Assembly: GCF_010093225.1 (NCBI RefSeq)
Contig: NZ_PDWM01000020.1
Coordinates: forward strand, 1-50,546
DNA: 50,546 nucleotides
Reading direction: 5' to 3'
DNA from: Pseudoxanthomonas koreensis
Lineage (GTDB): Bacteria > Pseudomonadota > Gammaproteobacteria > Xanthomonadales > Xanthomonadaceae
Shown here: piece by piece, positions 22,342 to 46,700 of the stretch
How the letters are laid out: each line of letters begins with the position of its first letter
Numbering within the stretch: the stretch's first letter is position 1
Program-made: the position numbers and the translations under genes
Notes under the pieces: model-generated
Seen by the model: only the letters and a program-made list of their open reading frames with translations
Databases searched by the model: none
Told to the model about the DNA's origin: nothing

Positions 22342-22417
22342 GCGGGACGGTCCTGGAATGGCCGGCCAGTGTCGCCATTCCCCGTGGGCAGGGCAAACCG
22401 GTGAGCGAGGTGGTTCC

Positions 22418-22493
22418 GTAGAGCCGGGCTTGCCCGGCTGTCACGCATGGCGGAGCAATGCGGCCAGGAGCAGCGGGGCAAGCCCCGCTCTAC
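22418..22493. repeat. GTAG-type palindromic repeat pair at the recG 3' end
   Basis: GTAGAGCCGGGCTTGCCCGG (from 22418) faces the reverse-oriented unit AGCGGGGCAAGCCCCGCTCT ending in CTAC at 22490-22493. Each arm is a near-perfect hairpin and the two are separated by about 32 bp. This is the GTAG repeat type described from Stenotrophomonas. The CTAC contains the recG stop codon read on the minus strand. Confidence 0.88.
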
Positions 22494-24625
22494 GCCCCGG
22501 CGTAGCGGACGGCCCCGCCGACCCAACGCGCGACCACCCGGTCGGCGATTTCCGGAGCGCCGGAAAGCAGGTGGTCGGCCAGGGCATGCACCTGCGGCAG
22601 CAGGCCGGCATCGCGGGCCAGGTCGGCGATCCGGAACGCGGCCAGGCCGGTCTGGCGGGTGCCGAGCAGTTCGCCCGGGCCGCGCAGTGCCAAGTCCTTT
22701 TCGGCGATCAGGAAGCCGTCGTTGCTCTGCCGCAGCACGTCCAGGCGTTGCCGGGCCAGCGCCGACAGCGGCGGCTGGTACAGCAGCACGCAGCTGGACG
22801 CGGCCGCTCCACGGCCCACGCGGCCGCGCAGCTGGTGGAGCTGGGCCAGGCCCAGGCGTTCGGCGTTCTCGACGATCATCAGCGAGGCATTGGGCACGTC
22901 CACGCCGACCTCGATCACCGTGGTGGCGACCAGCAGGTCGAGCGCGCCATCCTTGAAGGCGCGCATGACCGCCTGCTTCTCCGCACCCTTCAGCCGTCCG
23001 TGCACCAGGCCCACACGCAGGCCCGGCAATTGGGTGGTCAGCTGCTCGAAGGTCCGCTCGGCGGCCTGCGCCTGCAGGCGCGCGCCCTGCCCCGGCCTGG
23101 CGTCCTCTTCCGGCTCTTCGATCAGGGTGCACACCCAGTAGGCCTGGCGGCCCTCGGCGCAGGCGGCGCGGATGCGCTCGACCAGTTCGGGCCGGCGCTC
23201 GGCGCTTACCGCCACGGTCTGGACCGGCGTGCGACCGGGTGGCAGCTCGTCGATCGCCGACACGTCCAGGTCGGCATAGGCGGTCATTGCCAGGGTGCGC
23301 GGGATCGGGGTCGCGGTCATCACCAGCTGGTGCGGCACGTGGCCATGCGCCGGCCCCTTGTCGCGCAGGGCCAGGCGCTGCTGCACGCCGAAGCGGTGCT
23401 GTTCGTCGACCACTACCAGGGCCAGGTCGTGGAAGGCCACGCCTTCCTGCATCAAGGCATGCGTGCCGACCACGACCTGCGCCGCACCCGAGGCCACGTC
23501 AGCCAGCGCGGCCGCGCGCGCCTTGCCGGTGACCTTGCCGGCCAGCCAGGCCACGCGGATCCCCAGCGGCTCCAGCCACGCCTTCAGGTTGGCCAGGTGC
23601 TGCTCGGCCAGCAGTTCGGTCGGCGCGGCCAGCGCGACCTGGCAGCCGCGCTCCACCGCCAGGGTGGCAGCCAGCGCGGCGACCACGGTCTTGCCCGAAC
23701 CCACGTCGCCCTGCACCAGGCGCTGCATCGGATTGGGCAATGCGAGGTCGGCGCGGACCTGCTCGAACACGCGCCGCTGCGCGCCGGTGAGCGCGAACGG
23801 CAGGGTCCGCAGCAGTCGCGCGGCCAGCGCGCCGGGGCCGTCGAGCGCGCGGGCATGCAGCTGCTGCTGCGCCAGCCGCTGCCGGCGCAGGCTCAGGTGG
23901 TGCGCGAGCAGTTCTTCCAGGGCCAGGCGGCGCTGCGCCGGATGCTGGCCGGCGGCCAGCGCGGCGAGATCGGCGTCGGCCGGCGGCCGGTGCAGGACCA
24001 GCAGCGATTCGCGCAGTCCCGGCAGGCCGGCCATGCCGGGCGTGGACGCCGGCAGCAGTTCAAGCGCATCCGCGTCGGGCAGCAGGTCCAGCGCCTGGCC
24101 AACCAACCGGCGCAATGTGGCCGGGCCCACGCCCTCGACCGCCGGGTATACCGGATCGAGCGATTCGCCCAGCGCAGGCGCTTCGTCGTCGCCGAGCACG
24201 CGATAGCTCGGGTGGACGATCTCCAGCCCGTGCTGGCCCGGCCGTGGCGTACCGAAGCAGCGCAGGCGCGTGCCCGGGCGGAACTGCGCCACCTGGGCAG
24301 CGCGGAAATGGAAGAAGCGCAGCACCAGCGTGGCTCGCGAGCCGTCGCCGATGGCCACGCGCAGCACCGGCCGGTAGCGGAAGCCGCGTTCGACCGCTTC
24401 CACCGTGCCTTCGACCTGCGCCGGCACGCCGGGCTGCAGTTCGCGGATAGGCGTGAGCCGGGTGCGGTCCTCGTAGCGCAGCGGCAGGTGCAGCCACAGG
24501 TCCTGCACCGTGGCCAGCCCACGCGCGGCGAGCTTGCCGGCGACGCTTTCGCCGACGCCACGCAGCGCCGCCACGGGCGTGGCGCCACCGGCCAGCGCGG
24601 GCGCCGGCGTGCGCACGGCCTTCAT
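22490..24625 (-). CDS. recG: ATP-dependent DNA helicase RecG
   Basis: A 711-residue RecG, which remodels stalled replication forks and branch-migrates Holliday junctions. The N-terminal wedge/OB domain (ALRGVGESVAGKLAARGLATVQDLWLHLPLRYEDRT) precedes a superfamily 2 helicase core with Walker A GDVGSGKTVVA, the DEQH box (VVVDEQHRFGVQQR), TATPIPRTLAM, and the C-terminal motif VGRGAAASSCVLLYQPPLS followed by GPGELLGTRQTG. The start is taken as ATG; an in-frame GTG 12 bases upstream (24637) is equally possible because neither has a clear Shine-Dalgarno. The gene follows ridA and spoT, an order typical of the family. Its TAG stop is part of a palindromic repeat. Confidence 0.95.
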   Translation of the reverse strand: MKAVRTPAPALAGGATPVAALRGVGESVAGKLAARGLATVQDLWLHLPLRYEDRTRLTPIRELQPGVPAQVEGTVEAVERGFRYRPVLRVAIGDGSRATLVLRFFHFRAAQVAQFRPGTRLRCFGTPRPGQHGLEIVHPSYRVLGDDEAPALGESLDPVYPAVEGVGPATLRRLVGQALDLLPDADALELLPASTPGMAGLPGLRESLLVLHRPPADADLAALAAGQHPAQRRLALEELLAHHLSLRRQRLAQQQLHARALDGPGALAARLLRTLPFALTGAQRRVFEQVRADLALPNPMQRLVQGDVGSGKTVVAALAATLAVERGCQVALAAPTELLAEQHLANLKAWLEPLGIRVAWLAGKVTGKARAAALADVASGAAQVVVGTHALMQEGVAFHDLALVVVDEQHRFGVQQRLALRDKGPAHGHVPHQLVMTATPIPRTLAMTAYADLDVSAIDELPPGRTPVQTVAVSAERRPELVERIRAACAEGRQAYWVCTLIEEPEEDARPGQGARLQAQAAERTFEQLTTQLPGLRVGLVHGRLKGAEKQAVMRAFKDGALDLLVATTVIEVGVDVPNASLMIVENAERLGLAQLHQLRGRVGRGAAASSCVLLYQPPLSALARQRLDVLRQSNDGFLIAEKDLALRGPGELLGTRQTGLAAFRIADLARDAGLLPQVHALADHLLSGAPEIADRVVARWVGGAVRYAGA

Positions 24626-30351: not shown

Positions 30352-33300
30352 TCACGCCAGCGCGGCCAGGCGCTGGGCGAGCTTCTTCGGCGACACCGCG
30401 CCGCGCGAACCCAGTTCCTGTGCGAACAGCGACACGCGCAGTTCCTCGAGCTCCCAGCGCAGCGCCTGCCATCCGGGTGCCCCGTCCTCGCCGCGCGCGC
30501 GCGCGGCGGCGAGCGCGTCGGCGAACGGCTTCAGTTCCAGCATCCGCGCCTGGTCGCGCGCCGGGTCGCGCAGCGCGCGTTCGGCGCGCAGGGCCATGCC
30601 CCTGAGCCAGCGCGGGAACTGGGCCAGGGCTTCGGCCGGGGTGTGGCCGAGGAAACCGGGGTGGACCAGGCCGTCGAGCTGGCCGCGCAGGTCGTCGAGG
30701 TTGGCCCCGGCCCAACCCATCAGCGGCGCCTGCAGCTTCGGCTTGAGTTCGGCGACCGCGGCCAGGATCTGTTCGGCCAGTTGCAGCCGCGCCATCGCCT
30801 CGGCGAACAGCTGGCGGGCGGCGGCATCGGCGCGCTGCTGGAACACGGCGCGGTCGCGGATGCCGTCCAGCCCATCGGCCAGCACCGCGTTGAGCGCAGC
30901 TTCGACCAGGTCGGCGCGCAGCTGCTCCTTTTCCTTCGCCTTCGCTTCCGGGCCGTTGCCAAACTGTTCGATCGCCGCGTACAGCAGGCCGAGTTTCGGC
31001 GAGACCGGGAGCTGTTTGCGTGCCTGCCGCGCCTTGTCGGCCAGGGCGATCCGCAGCAGGCGGTCGACCCCGCGCGGATGCGCGGCCTGGGCCTGGGCAC
31101 GGTCGGCGAACACGCGCAGCACCGCGTGGTCGCCTTCGTCGACCAGCGCCGGCCAGCCGGGCACGCCGGCCTCGCCGGTGACCTGCAGCGGGAGCGGCGC
31201 ATCGGGGAAGTCGCGCAGCGGCTGCGCCGCGCTGGCCAGCGCGCGGCCAGCGCGCGCGGCGAAAGCGCGACCGGCACGTTCGCCGAACTGCGCGCGCAGC
31301 GCATCCAGGTCGCGCGACTCGGCCAGGACCTTGCCGCCCTGCGCCGGCTCTTCGCGCAGGCGCAGGTTGATCCGCAGGTGCGGCTCCAGCGCGGCTTCGT
31401 CGAAGTCCAGCGCGGACACGGCCACGCCGGTGGCGCGGGAGAGGAAGCGCGCCAGTTCGCCGCCGAGCGCATCGGCCGACGGCCTGGCGAACGCCTCGAA
31501 GAAGGCGCGGCCGAAATCCGGCGCCGGCACGTAGTTGCGGCGCGCCGCCTTGGGCAGGGTACGGATCAGGCCGGCAGCCTTGTCGGCGACGAAGCCTGGC
31601 GCCAGCCACGACAGCCGCGCCGGGTCGAGCGCGTTGAGCAGCGGCAGCGGCACCTCCAGGGTGACGCCGTCGTCGGCCGCGCCAGGCTCGAAGCGGTAAT
31701 GCAGCGGCAGGCGCGCGTCGCCGAGCGCGAAGTACTTCGGATACAGGTCGTCCTGCCCGCCCTCGCCCGGCAGCAGGTCGGTGGCCGACCAGCGCAGTGC
31801 GGCGCGCTGCGGCTCGGCCAGCCTGCGGTACCACGCCTCCAGGCCGGCCGTCGAATGGATCTCGCCCGGCACCCGGTCCAGGTACCAGCGCGCCTGCCAG
31901 TCCTCGTCGGCGACCAGGCCGGCGCGGCGCAGCTTGGCTTCCTCTTCGCGCGCCAGCTCCAGCGTCTTCAGGTTGGCGGCCACGAACGACGCCTTCGCAT
32001 CGATCTCGCCGGGCACCAGGCCCTGGCGCACGAACAGGTCGTGGGCGCCGGCCGGGTCGATGCGACCGAAATGCACAGGCCGCTTCGGCGCGAGCACCAG
32101 GCCGAACAGGCCGATCTGCTCGGAGGCCAGCACGTTGCCCTGCGCGCGCGACCAGCGCGGGTCGAAGTGCCTGCGCGCGAGCAACTGCGGCAGCTCGTCG
32201 ATCGCCCAGTCCGGCTCGATCGCCGCGGCGGTCAGGCCCCAGACCTTCTGCGTGTCCAGCAGGGTAGCCACGAGCACCCACGGTGGCGGCTTCTTCGCCA
32301 GCGGCGATGCGGGGAACAGCTGGAAGCGGCGCTGCCTCGGCGCCTGGTAGTCGCCCTTCTCGGTGCGGTGGCCGAGCTGGGTCGGCAGGCCGGAGATCAG
32401 CGCGCGGTGCAACGACTGGTAGGCACGGGCACGTTCGCGGGCGGAAAAGGGGACGGAGGGAATTTTCCCTGGCGGTGCATCGGTTACCGGGGGCTTATCA
32501 GGGAAAATTCCCTCCGTCCCCTTTTCCTTCTCGCGCGCCAGGCGCGCGGCACGGTGCAGTTCGCCGCGGGTCGGACGGGTGGAAGCGCCTTCGCGCGCAT
32601 CGGCCGCCGGTGCGCCGGCGAGCAGCGGCAGCAACGCCTGTTCCGACGCCTCCTCGCGCCAGCCCAACTCCTCGCACAGCAGCTTGAGCTGCCGGTGCAG
32701 CTCTCGCCATTCGCGCATGCGCAGGAAGCCGAGGAAGCGCTTGCCGCACCAGTCGCGCAGCTTCGACTGGGTCAGTTCTTCGTGGGCGGTGTCGTAGGCC
32801 TGCCACAGGCGCAGGATGCCGACGAACTCCGAGCGCGCGTCGGCGAACTGCGCATGCGCGTTGTCGGCCGCCTCGCGCGCCTCCGGCGGCCGTTCGCGCG
32901 GATCCTGCACGCCGAGGAAGGCGGCGATCGGCAGCATCGCCCGCAGCACGCCGTGGCCCTGCGCGGCGACCAGCATCCGCGCCAGCTTCACGTCCACCGG
33001 CAAGCGCGCCATCTGCCGGCCGGTGGCGGTGAGCCGGCGCCGGCCATCGCTGTCTTCGATCGCGCCCAGTTCGACCAGCTGCTGCCAGCCGTCGGCGATG
33101 GCACGCTCGTCGGGTGGCTCCAGGAACGGGAAGTCCTCGATTCCACCGAGCCCCAGGTGCAGCATGCGCAGGATCACCGCGGCCAGGCTGGAACGGCGGA
33201 TCTCCGGATCGGTGAATTCCGGCCGCGAGAGGAAATCGGCTTCGGAATACAGGCGGTAGCACACGCCTTCGGCGATGCGCCCGCAGCGGCCCTTGCGCTG

Positions 33301-34575
33301 GTCGGCGCTGGCCCGGCTGACCGGCTCCACGTGCAGGCGGTCGATCTTCGAGCGCGGGCTGTAGCGCTTGATCCGCGCCTCGCCCGGATCGACCACGTAG
33401 CGGATCCGCGGCACCGTCAGCGAAGTCTCGGCGACGTTGGTGGCCAGCACGATGCGCCGCTGCGGGCCCGGGTTGAACACCCGGTCCTGGTCGCGCGCCG
33501 ACAGCCGCGCGTACAGCGGCAGTACTTCGGTGGAACGGTACTGGCGTTTCTCCAGCGCGCGGTGCAGGTCGCGGATCTCGCGCTCGCCGGGCAGGAACAC
33601 CAGCACGTCGCCGCGCGGGTCTTCGGCGGTGATCTCGTCGACGGCGGCGGTAATCGCGGCAACAGGATCGAGCTCGCGACTGGAATGAGGGTCGGAGTCC
33701 CTTTTGCTCCTGCCAGCTCCGGACCTCGAGGTACGTCCGGGGAGAAGGGACCCTGCCCCCCCTTCTTCTGAACCCCCTTCCTGTCCCGGCGGCCGGTAGC
33801 GCACCTCCACCGGATACGTGCGCCCGGCCACCTCGACCACCGGTGCATCGTCGAAATGCCTTGAAAAGCGCGCGGTGTCGATCGTGGCCGAGGTCACGAC
33901 CAGCTTCAGGTCGCGGCGCTTCTTCAGCAACTGCTTGAGGTAGCCGAGCAGGAAGTCGATGTTGAGGCTGCGCTCGTGCGCCTCGTCGACGATGATCGTG
34001 TCGTAGGCCGACAGCCAGCGGTCCGAGGCGATCTCTGCCAGCAGGATGCCGTCGGTCATGAACTTGATCCGGGTATCGGCACCGACGTTGTCGGTGAAGC
34101 GCACCTGGTAGCCGACCTGGCCGCCCAGCGGGGTCTTCAGTTCCTCGGCCACGCGCGCGGCCACGGCGCGGGCGGCGATCCGGCGCGGCTGGGTGCAGCC
34201 GACCATGCCGGCCACGCCGCGGCCGGCGGCCAGGCACAGCTTCGGCAACTGGGTGGTCTTGCCCGAACCGGTCTCGCCGGCCAGCACCACCACCTGGTGC
34301 GCACGGATCAGCTCGACGATGCGCTCGGCCTCGGCGGCGATCGGCAGCGCAGCGTCGACCGTTACCTGCGGCAGGTCCGTGGCGCGCGCCTGGCGCACCG
34401 CCACCGATGCGGCCAGCGCCTGCTCGAAGCGTTCGCGCAATGCCTCATCGGCGGGCTTCCCGCGCCAGCGCGACCACAGCCCGTGCAGGCGGCCGCGATC
34501 GCGGCCCATGGCCTGGTCGATCCCGCGCCGTCCGGCTTCCAGGGTCCTGCGCAATTCGGGGGGAATCGATTCCAT
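30352..34575 (-). CDS. hrpA: ATP-dependent RNA helicase HrpA, with two in-frame repeat insertions
   Basis: A 1407-residue DEAH-box RNA helicase; HrpA is usually near 1300. Walker A is GETGSGKTTQLPK, the DEAH box is IIVDEAHERSLN, motif III is TSAT, and motif VI is QRKGRCGRIAEGVCYRLY; winged-helix, ratchet, OB and DUF3418 regions follow. HrpA rescues stalled ribosomes in E. coli. Two stretches look foreign: about residues 270-298, between the two RecA-like domains, and residues 684-711, before the DUF3418 region. At DNA level both are palindromic repeat elements (33683-33769 and 32445-32525) that keep the frame open, and both fall where a surface loop is plausible. The long reading frame stays intact throughout, so the gene is probably functional. 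Confidence 0.95.
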   Translation of the reverse strand: MESIPPELRRTLEAGRRGIDQAMGRDRGRLHGLWSRWRGKPADEALRERFEQALAASVAVRQARATDLPQVTVDAALPIAAEAERIVELIRAHQVVVLAGETGSGKTTQLPKLCLAAGRGVAGMVGCTQPRRIAARAVAARVAEELKTPLGGQVGYQVRFTDNVGADTRIKFMTDGILLAEIASDRWLSAYDTIIVDEAHERSLNIDFLLGYLKQLLKKRRDLKLVVTSATIDTARFSRHFDDAPVVEVAGRTYPVEVRYRPPGQEGGSEEGGAGSLLPGRTSRSGAGRSKRDSDPHSSRELDPVAAITAAVDEITAEDPRGDVLVFLPGEREIRDLHRALEKRQYRSTEVLPLYARLSARDQDRVFNPGPQRRIVLATNVAETSLTVPRIRYVVDPGEARIKRYSPRSKIDRLHVEPVSRASADQRKGRCGRIAEGVCYRLYSEADFLSRPEFTDPEIRRSSLAAVILRMLHLGLGGIEDFPFLEPPDERAIADGWQQLVELGAIEDSDGRRRLTATGRQMARLPVDVKLARMLVAAQGHGVLRAMLPIAAFLGVQDPRERPPEAREAADNAHAQFADARSEFVGILRLWQAYDTAHEELTQSKLRDWCGKRFLGFLRMREWRELHRQLKLLCEELGWREEASEQALLPLLAGAPAADAREGASTRPTRGELHRAARLAREKEKGTEGIFPDKPPVTDAPPGKIPSVPFSARERARAYQSLHRALISGLPTQLGHRTEKGDYQAPRQRRFQLFPASPLAKKPPPWVLVATLLDTQKVWGLTAAAIEPDWAIDELPQLLARRHFDPRWSRAQGNVLASEQIGLFGLVLAPKRPVHFGRIDPAGAHDLFVRQGLVPGEIDAKASFVAANLKTLELAREEEAKLRRAGLVADEDWQARWYLDRVPGEIHSTAGLEAWYRRLAEPQRAALRWSATDLLPGEGGQDDLYPKYFALGDARLPLHYRFEPGAADDGVTLEVPLPLLNALDPARLSWLAPGFVADKAAGLIRTLPKAARRNYVPAPDFGRAFFEAFARPSADALGGELARFLSRATGVAVSALDFDEAALEPHLRINLRLREEPAQGGKVLAESRDLDALRAQFGERAGRAFAARAGRALASAAQPLRDFPDAPLPLQVTGEAGVPGWPALVDEGDHAVLRVFADRAQAQAAHPRGVDRLLRIALADKARQARKQLPVSPKLGLLYAAIEQFGNGPEAKAKEKEQLRADLVEAALNAVLADGLDGIRDRAVFQQRADAAARQLFAEAMARLQLAEQILAAVAELKPKLQAPLMGWAGANLDDLRGQLDGLVHPGFLGHTPAEALAQFPRWLRGMALRAERALRDPARDQARMLELKPFADALAAARARGEDGAPGWQALRWELEELRVSLFAQELGSRGAVSPKKLAQRLAALA
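32445..32525. repeat. 81-bp perfect REPIN-like element inside hrpA
   Basis: Two perfect 27-bp inverted arms (32445-32471, beginning AAAAGGGGACGGAGGGAATT, and 32499-32525) flank a 27-bp spacer, 81 bp in all, so exactly 27 codons. Read on the minus strand it encodes the HrpA segment from about Lys684, including KGTEGIFPDKPPV and PPGKIPSVPF. The arm shares 20 bases nearly identically with the inverted repeat between bamD and nadE (46634-46694). Perfect arms suggest a recent insertion or gene conversion. Confidence 0.85.
33683..33769. repeat. Second, imperfect palindromic element inside hrpA
   Basis: An imperfect inverted repeat of about 87 bp: the left arm GAATGAGGGTCGGAGTCCCT faces a right arm whose complement reads GAAGAAGGGGGGCAGGGTCC, with an inner stem CCGGAC/GTCCGG (33718-33724 with 33735-33740). 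It belongs to the widespread GGGTCGGAGTCCCTTTT type rather than to the GGGGACGGAGGG type. It is translated in frame as HrpA residues about 270-298 (GAGSLLPGRTSRSGAGRSKR). Confidence 0.65.
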
Positions 34576-35313: not shown

Positions 35314-35455
35314 TGTAGGAGCCCACTTCAGGGGGCGAACCGAGGCGGTCGGATGACGGCTTCGTTCAACGGCCACCTCTCCGGGAGGGTTTCGCGTTGA
35401 ACGCGGCGCTTTCCAGCCGCGTCGGGTCGCCCCCTGAAGTGGGCTCCTGCAAGGG
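35314..35455. repeat. Second copy of the GTAGGAGCCCACTTCAGGGG repeat pair
   Basis: The same GTAG-headed unit seen at 2321-2464 occurs at 35314-35340 and, inverted, at 35426-35455, in the gap between the convergent dps and clpB genes. The interior also shares CGCGTTGAACGCGGC with the first copy, at the same distance from the right arm, so the whole approximately 142-bp element seems to have spread as a unit. Confidence 0.85.
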
Positions 35456-46629: not shown

Positions 46630-46633
46630 GGAT

Positions 46634-46694
46634 AAAAAAGGGGGACGGAGGGAATTAAGCGCCAAGCGCTTAATTCCCTCCGCCCCCCTTTTTT
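46634..46694. repeat. REPIN-like inverted repeat acting as bidirectional terminator
   Basis: Two 29-bp arms (46634-46662 and 46666-46694) differ at one base and are separated by only three bases, giving a very long hairpin with A6 at one end and T6 at the other. It fills the 71-bp gap between the convergent bamD and nadE genes and has the form of an intrinsic terminator in both directions. The arm AAAAGGGGGACGGAGGGAAT is nearly the same as that of the element inside hrpA. Confidence 0.85.
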
Positions 46695-46700
46695 ACTTCT

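Follow-up and report, generated by a model that had tools for sequence, protein, structure and literature searches.

Different palindromes occupy the same hrpA linker, in frame, in Pseudoxanthomonas koreensis and related bacteria

The hrpA gene of Pseudoxanthomonas koreensis carries, inside its reading frame, an 85-bp palindrome that a solved HrpA and some congeners lack. We favor, at a probability of about three in four, a reading in which selfish palindromes are tolerated in flexible protein linkers and a non-autonomous palindrome of the TIR type entered the hrpA linker in frame. This small hairpin is probably mobile. Related bacteria have other hairpins at that position, so the linkers of a few large proteins may be under continual rewriting by parasitic DNA.

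An 85-bp palindrome in the reading frame of hrpA

The palindrome and its host gene lie on a P. koreensis contig of 50,546 nucleotides, which was analyzed whole and is called the window here.

30352..34575, minus strand: hrpA, host gene, encoding an ATP-dependent DEAH-box RNA helicase of 1407 aa (ORF and TIGR01967)
32443..32527, minus strand: whole element in the hrpA frame, 85 bp, between the HA2 and OB-fold domains; predicted translation KEKGTEGIFPDKPPVTDAPPGKIPSVPFS
32443..32471, plus strand: left arm of the palindrome, 29 nt, with the core GGGGACGGAGGGAATT at 32449-32464
32472..32498, no strand: loop, 27 nt, between the two arms
32499..32527, minus strand: right arm, 29 nt, perfect reverse complement of the left arm

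The gene product matched TIGR01967 with 1374 bits against a cut-off of 723, which identifies it as HrpA, and its domains are DEAD (residues 85-233), Helicase_C (312-434), HA2 (to 581), an OB fold (722-797) and DUF3418 (812-1404). No stop interrupts the hrpA frame through the palindrome in the window's ORFs. The initial annotation had described two perfect inverted arms, 27 nt apart, as a unit that is open in the hrpA frame and had landed there without breaking the gene, and the window's inverted repeats and ORFs bear this out, the frame being kept. It had given the arms 27 bp and the whole 81 bp, at 32445-32525 (HrpA residues 684-711); the repeat is indeed perfect, but the perfect arms extend to 29 bp, so that the sum is 29 + 27 + 29 = 85 bp. 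The claim that every part is divisible by three therefore fails, as it is true only of arms trimmed to 27 bp, and survivorship would favor such lengths besides. Preservation of the frame is to be expected of any in-gene copy that survives.

With up to 3 mismatches allowed, the 16-mer core matches the window 4 times where 0.34 matches are expected, and 0 of 100 shuffles reached 4. Coding placement is rare among inverted repeats of this strength: in 849,290 bases of the same genome, window included, 2 of the 88 repeats scoring at least 18 were called coding, namely the hrpA palindrome (29.0) and a low-complexity repeat (19.5), and a control of 1.2 Mb from a congener (genome G013), a sample without hrpA and icmF, gave 0 of 32. 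These calls rest on codon scores trained on three window genes, a rule that may overlook copies where genome composition differs. Repeats scoring 15-17.5 that were called coding (5 in the control genome, 8 in P. koreensis) look like ordinary GC-rich coding DNA.

Folding of a 111-nt RNA segment that includes the element gave a computed energy of -69.6 kcal/mol (z -9.7). A terminator scan of 32300-32700 reported none, but because it allowed loops of only 3-8 nt it is blind to a 27-nt loop and cannot judge the hrpA hairpin; the window had no Rfam match at gathering score. In an AlphaFold model of HrpA residues 300-900, the element region has pLDDT below 50, as does much else, and the mean is 54.1, so the model speaks only weakly for the predicted coil.

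A dispersed family in the P. koreensis genome

At up to 2 mismatches, the core matches the 3.05-Mb genome 22 times in the forward and 22 times in the reverse direction. These matches form 21 paired elements, with 2 left single. Six of the pairs, that in hrpA included, have the exact core, one has a mismatched arm (46633-46695) and 14 carry GGCAATT for GGGAATT. Loops are short in all 20 pairs outside hrpA, whose cores differ by 0 or 1 mismatch; the 27-nt loop and the TTCCCTG continuation belong to the hrpA copy alone. When the best-scoring frames of the flanks were compared for all 21 pairs, one open coding frame spanned both flanks and the element at the hrpA pair only; at one other locus (L044) both flanks are in the same frame, yet there is a stop at the element. 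The genome search that the initial annotation had called for thus returned 20 further paired copies and only one, in hrpA, with a gene's frame running through it.

Convergent coding flanks surround 8 of the 21 pairs, which may therefore serve as two-way terminators. Among these is the copy in the window:

46633..46695, no strand: intergenic copy of the hrpA-palindrome family, with 30-nt arms, one mismatch, a 3-nt loop and convergent coding flanks

The initial annotation had called the arms of this copy almost the same as those in hrpA. The outer arm is indeed common to both, a run of A followed by GGGGACGGAGGGAATT, while the intergenic copy has an extra G and one mismatched arm, and the inner arm and loop differ. 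Its description of the element as a mobile REPIN-like unit holds as regards dispersal, with 21 paired copies, but the element is no GTAG REPIN and is instead a TIR-type palindrome. The window's own GTAG repeats form a different family: the inverted repeats at 2319-2465 and 35314-35451 have GTAGGAGCCCACTTCAGGGGGCGA arms, the GTAG type that adjoins the only Y1_Tnp match of the genome (G000:C33). Another inverted repeat, at 22417-22494 (arms 24 nt, loop 30, GTAGAGC ends), perhaps represents a further REP family.

Arms of the same type around Y1 transposase genes

TIR repeats are recognized by an inverted pair that flanks a Y1 (HUH) transposase gene, an arrangement that we found in other species of the genus and did not see in P. 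koreensis. The P. koreensis genome has a single Y1_Tnp match, with GTAG repeats and not the hrpA-type arm beside it, and this transposase was accordingly dropped as a partner of the element. We surveyed 25 Y1 loci of the genus for arm motifs within 1.5 kb. The GGGGACGGAGGGAATTAAG arm was present around the Y1 gene at two of them. At L105 (genome G015), GGGGACGGAGGGAATTAAG starts 50 bp before the open frame and an inverted copy follows 44 bp after it; the frame encodes a Y1_Tnp domain (44.1 bits) and scores 73.3 bits with the REP-associated transposase model, below its cut-off of 80. At L114 (G013), the arm precedes a related, shorter frame of 173 codons by 47 bp, and an inverted copy follows 1290 bp after that frame. 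Arms of the GGGGTCAGAGT type surround the Y1 genes at three loci (L099, L101 and L113), L107 has one lone TIR motif, and L068 and L117 have GTAG motifs; 17 of the 25 loci had neither arm type nor a GTAG motif within 1.5 kb. A Pfam search at E 0.1 of the transposases at L105, L099 and L113 returned Y1_Tnp only and no HTH.

As to arm sequence, the P. koreensis arm GGGGACGG differs from GGGGWSAS at position 7 and related GGGGTCAG arms fit it, a consensus common to only some TIRs according to the available text of PMC3733652. The arm starts GGAAAAGGGG and so lacks the GTAG or GTGG head of the two inverted REPs that make up a REPIN. The element does resemble Rickettsia palindromic elements in being a palindrome in frame within a real gene and missing from homologues. 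Target-site duplications, a mark of MITEs, were not obvious by eye in the flanks of the 94 long-loop elements examined (see below).

Palindromes in the hrpA linkers of related bacteria

PDB 9ggr, the solved HrpA used for alignment and presumably the E. coli protein, aligned up to residue 639 of P. koreensis HrpA and resumed at residue 717, with 6 residues of its own between. HrpA is present in all 17 genomes of the genus, and 8 of these have no element in this linker, linker 2. The palindrome is perfect, with arms of 29-31 bp, in P. koreensis (G000), G010 and G014, and has 32-bp arms with one mismatch in G013; a worn version of the G013 element is present in G012, and the elements of G005, G006, G008 and G015 look decayed by eye. 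A GGGGACGGAGG core is common to P. koreensis and G010, and the remaining linker-2 elements are of GGGGTC types. Among the 80 named HrpA loci listed as matches, three outside the 17 genus genomes also carry a linker-2 element, in Stenotrophomonas daejeonensis (L152), Stenotrophomonas sp. SY1 (L179, the same genome as G044) and Pseudoxanthomonas composti (L200), while 72 of these 80 showed none by score and eye. Residues 684-711, for which the initial annotation had proposed a comparison with relatives, are thus missing from the solved HrpA, and 8 of 17 genus genomes have no element there. In the data searched, further copies of the arm were present and the residues were not found conserved in distant genera that lack the repeat, the two points on which that annotation had staked its reading.

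It is hardly credible that these are ordinary HrpA residues conserved in the family and palindromic by chance, or an assembly artifact. A linker as such is present in the family HrpA rows viewed, as conserved residues would have it, but the genome holds 20 other paired copies, the element is missing in relatives and in the solved HrpA, and separately assembled genomes hold different elements at the same site.

Is the hairpin perhaps maintained for slowing ribosomes or RNA polymerase where two domains meet, or for coupling hrpA expression to ribosome rescue by HrpA? The initial annotation was right that HrpA acts on stalled ribosomes, as stated in the available part of PMC13159725, citing Campbell et al. 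2025. The predicted hairpin is very stable and stands at a domain boundary of this rescue gene, and different palindromes return at the same linkers, all of which suits a function in pausing. On the other hand, the absences just listed (8 of 17 genus genomes, and 72 of the 80 named loci listed) and the four elements that look decayed disfavor a strong requirement, and decay without replacement fits neutrality. We consider such a role unlikely.

What looks like a second insert, assigned to the element type by eye, lies in another linker of the same protein:

33679..33771, minus strand: second, strongly decayed in-frame hrpA insert, joining the two helicase domains (HrpA residues 269-299) and without an aligned counterpart in the solved HrpA

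The inverted-repeat score at this site is only 8.5 in P. koreensis, against 27 in L235 (G123), which has a perfect element with 27-bp arms, and 23.5 in L130 (P. kaohsiungensis), which has a nearly intact one; some Xanthomonas have other repeats there. The palindromes of other species in the same linker, this second insert and the icmF pattern described below had gone unmentioned in the initial annotation.

A quick tree of 85 HrpA rows, 12 of them labeled as having the element (some by eye), requires at least 6 changes, 4 of which are forced by strongly supported branches. The length of the linker tells a less simple story. Within the genus, linker 2 averages 40.9 aa with the element (n = 11) against 40.25 without (n = 8; p = 0.80); set against all 73 element-free rows, the 40.9 aa compare with 35.6 (p = 0.0015). 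L132 lacks the anchor and for that reason could not be measured and was left out.

The equal lengths within the genus bring in an alternative, namely that a new palindrome overwrites an old one in the hrpA slot (by palindrome-templated repair, loop inversion, or insertion with deletion) and length stays constant. G008 and G010, sisters with full support in the tree, differ in arm sequence (that of G008 decayed, by eye), and G010 is without the otherwise conserved neighboring RPTRGELHRAARLARE segment, as replacement would have it. The loops of P. koreensis (L071) and G010 (L074) agree at 19 of 24 aligned positions, though they run in opposite directions with respect to the gene; 0 of 500 simple shuffles reached such a match, with 28 loop pairs tested. 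Such inverted loops suggest loop inversion or insertions in opposite orientation. Against replacement, loop homology is unconvincing apart from this pair and the close pair G012-G013 (lowest p = 0.038, uncorrected), as independent insertions predict, and selection on linker length would give the same pattern of lengths. We rate replacement as possible but doubtful, also in light of icmF.

In-frame palindromes in icmF and other genes

Long-loop elements gave 35 matches in 7 of the 17 genus genomes, and 18 of 119 family genomes were positive. The total came to 116 matches in 131 genomes of genus and family, of which 94 were examined (all 35 of the genus and 59 of the 81 others). Fifteen of these 94 were judged to be in-frame copies within genes. 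The hrpA gene accounts for 6, of which five are in linker 2 and one is in linker 1; the other 9 are in icmF (NF045497 family), where linker A has two, linker B six and linker C one. Thirteen of the 15 came from the automatic rule, and L086 at 1548 and L216 were added after the protein was read; the count excludes L095 at 2638, which is 6 codons upstream, and L083, which is close to the start of a gene, and 14 borderline loci were judged by eye.

Linker B of icmF is longer where it holds a TIR element, at 43.0 aa in 8 genomes against 17.9 aa in 10 genomes without one (p = 0.0004); G004, with a linker B of 65 aa and GTAG-like repeats, belongs to neither group. This difference of about 25 aa is what simple insertion predicts and stands against replacement. 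Linker B of icmF thus fits simple insertion, while the length of hrpA linker 2 is not predicted by an insertion of about 27 aa. Repeats of other kinds, with types named by eye, also occupy icmF: that of G004 (L268) has GTAG-like palindromic repeats in frame in linkers A, B and C, and the icmF linkers of other species hold further small in-frame repeats. In the icmF of P. koreensis itself (L264, G000:C11), the linker A peptide NAGMHAGVGSPMNGAPTE resembles, by eye, a translated remnant of a GTAG repeat.

The upstream DNA around GCGCGAGAAG is alike in hrpA and in icmF linker B (L071, L073 and L209), and from this likeness one might suppose that a target motif directs insertion to the two genes. 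We think this very unlikely: by eye, no motif is common to the 94 flanks, the other linkers show no likeness to GCGCGAGAAG, and other repeat types occupy the same linkers. A motif shared by hrpA and icmF was therefore not upheld.

Nor do we take confinement to two genes as a general law. It described 15 of 15 in-gene copies in the family sample, yet mpl, uup and others appear beyond the family. In other families of the order, 6 of 31 elements (30 loci among those listed) lay in frame inside genes as judged by eye. Three are in icmF (L399), mpl (L397) and uup (L410), confirmed by NCBIfam, and three (L389, L414 and L417) are in proteins with a SIAVLPF/SIAVLAF or SVAVLPF stretch. L389 had no NCBIfam match, and L417 had TPR and CadC/HilA-like matches only; we take these SIAVLPF-type proteins to be TolB-like.

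Discussion

These data are best accommodated by a model in which selfish palindromes are tolerated in flexible linkers. The TIR-type arms, with a GGGGACGGAGG or GGGGTCAGAGT core, would be the terminal repeats of RAYT-like HUH/Y1 transposase units of the TIRtron/TIRYT type, and a Y1 transposase would mobilize palindromes in trans that have no coding role of their own. A copy that entered the hrpA interdomain linker in frame would be read, if translated as predicted, as about 29 linker residues. Inside genes, neutral copies would survive if they preserve the reading frame, introduce no stop and add flexible residues that the protein can tolerate. Different TIR sequences would then have colonized the linkers of HrpA and IcmF more than once, and those of icmF would also have received GTAG-REP-like and other small repeats. 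Tolerance may account for the concentration in two genes in part; it does not by itself explain why all 15 copies of the family sample lie there.

More tentatively, and with little expectation that it is right, the HrpA and IcmF linkers of this family could be seen as replaceable slots for successive mobile palindromes, with loop inversion and family switching. If so, transposable hairpins supply and renew the linker sequence of a host protein. Because different palindromes return to the same linkers, one can test whether mobile DNA merely survives there or shapes the linkers themselves. The in-gene hairpins, at their various stages of decay, also form a natural series for following the passage of ribosomes through strong mRNA structure.

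Several known systems resemble the hrpA palindrome in part. In the available text of PMC3733652, inverted repeats headed by GGGG flank RAYT-like Y1 transposases (TIRtron/TIRYT) and form dispersed families, including in Stenotrophomonas maltophilia, and the available text of PMC6006769 equates these with TnpA-REP subclass 2.1, which has an HTH C-terminal domain. The hrpA-type arm is likewise dispersed and flanks a Y1 gene in a congener. Unlike what is described in those parts of PMC3733652, the repeats here lie inside genes; moreover, the P. koreensis arm GGGGACGG is one position off GGGGWSAS, and Pfam did not find the HTH of subclass 2.1 in the transposases at L105, L099 and L113.

Intragenic placement has precedents in other repeat families. 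According to the same text, GTAG/CGTC REPs lie in frame within known genes, among them RNA helicases of O. terrae and recB, which is hit at nearly the same place in two species of Xanthomonas (PMC3733652). These belong to another repeat superfamily, whereas in the present case several species carry differing palindromes at the same linkers of hrpA and icmF. REPINs, in the available text of Bertels and Rainey 2011 (PMC3116915), are inverted pairs of short repeats that form hairpins, are tied to RAYTs and are treated in extragenic space; the hrpA palindrome shares the hairpin and the inverted pair but is without the GTAG/GTGG head. Rickettsia palindromic elements (Ogata et al. 2000, 2002) are described as palindromes in frame in unrelated protein genes (PMC3733652, PMC10969869) and as about 150 bp long (PMC10969869), so far as the available text of these sources goes. 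The likeness here is the in-frame palindrome and the difference is the lineage.

Our searches of the open literature, which were not aimed at exactly this combination, did not turn up an account of palindromes in the linkers of hrpA or icmF. The in-frame palindromes of Rickettsia and the intragenic REPs were already known; the apparent novelty is that TIR-type palindromes play this role and that the hrpA and icmF linkers have been colonized repeatedly.
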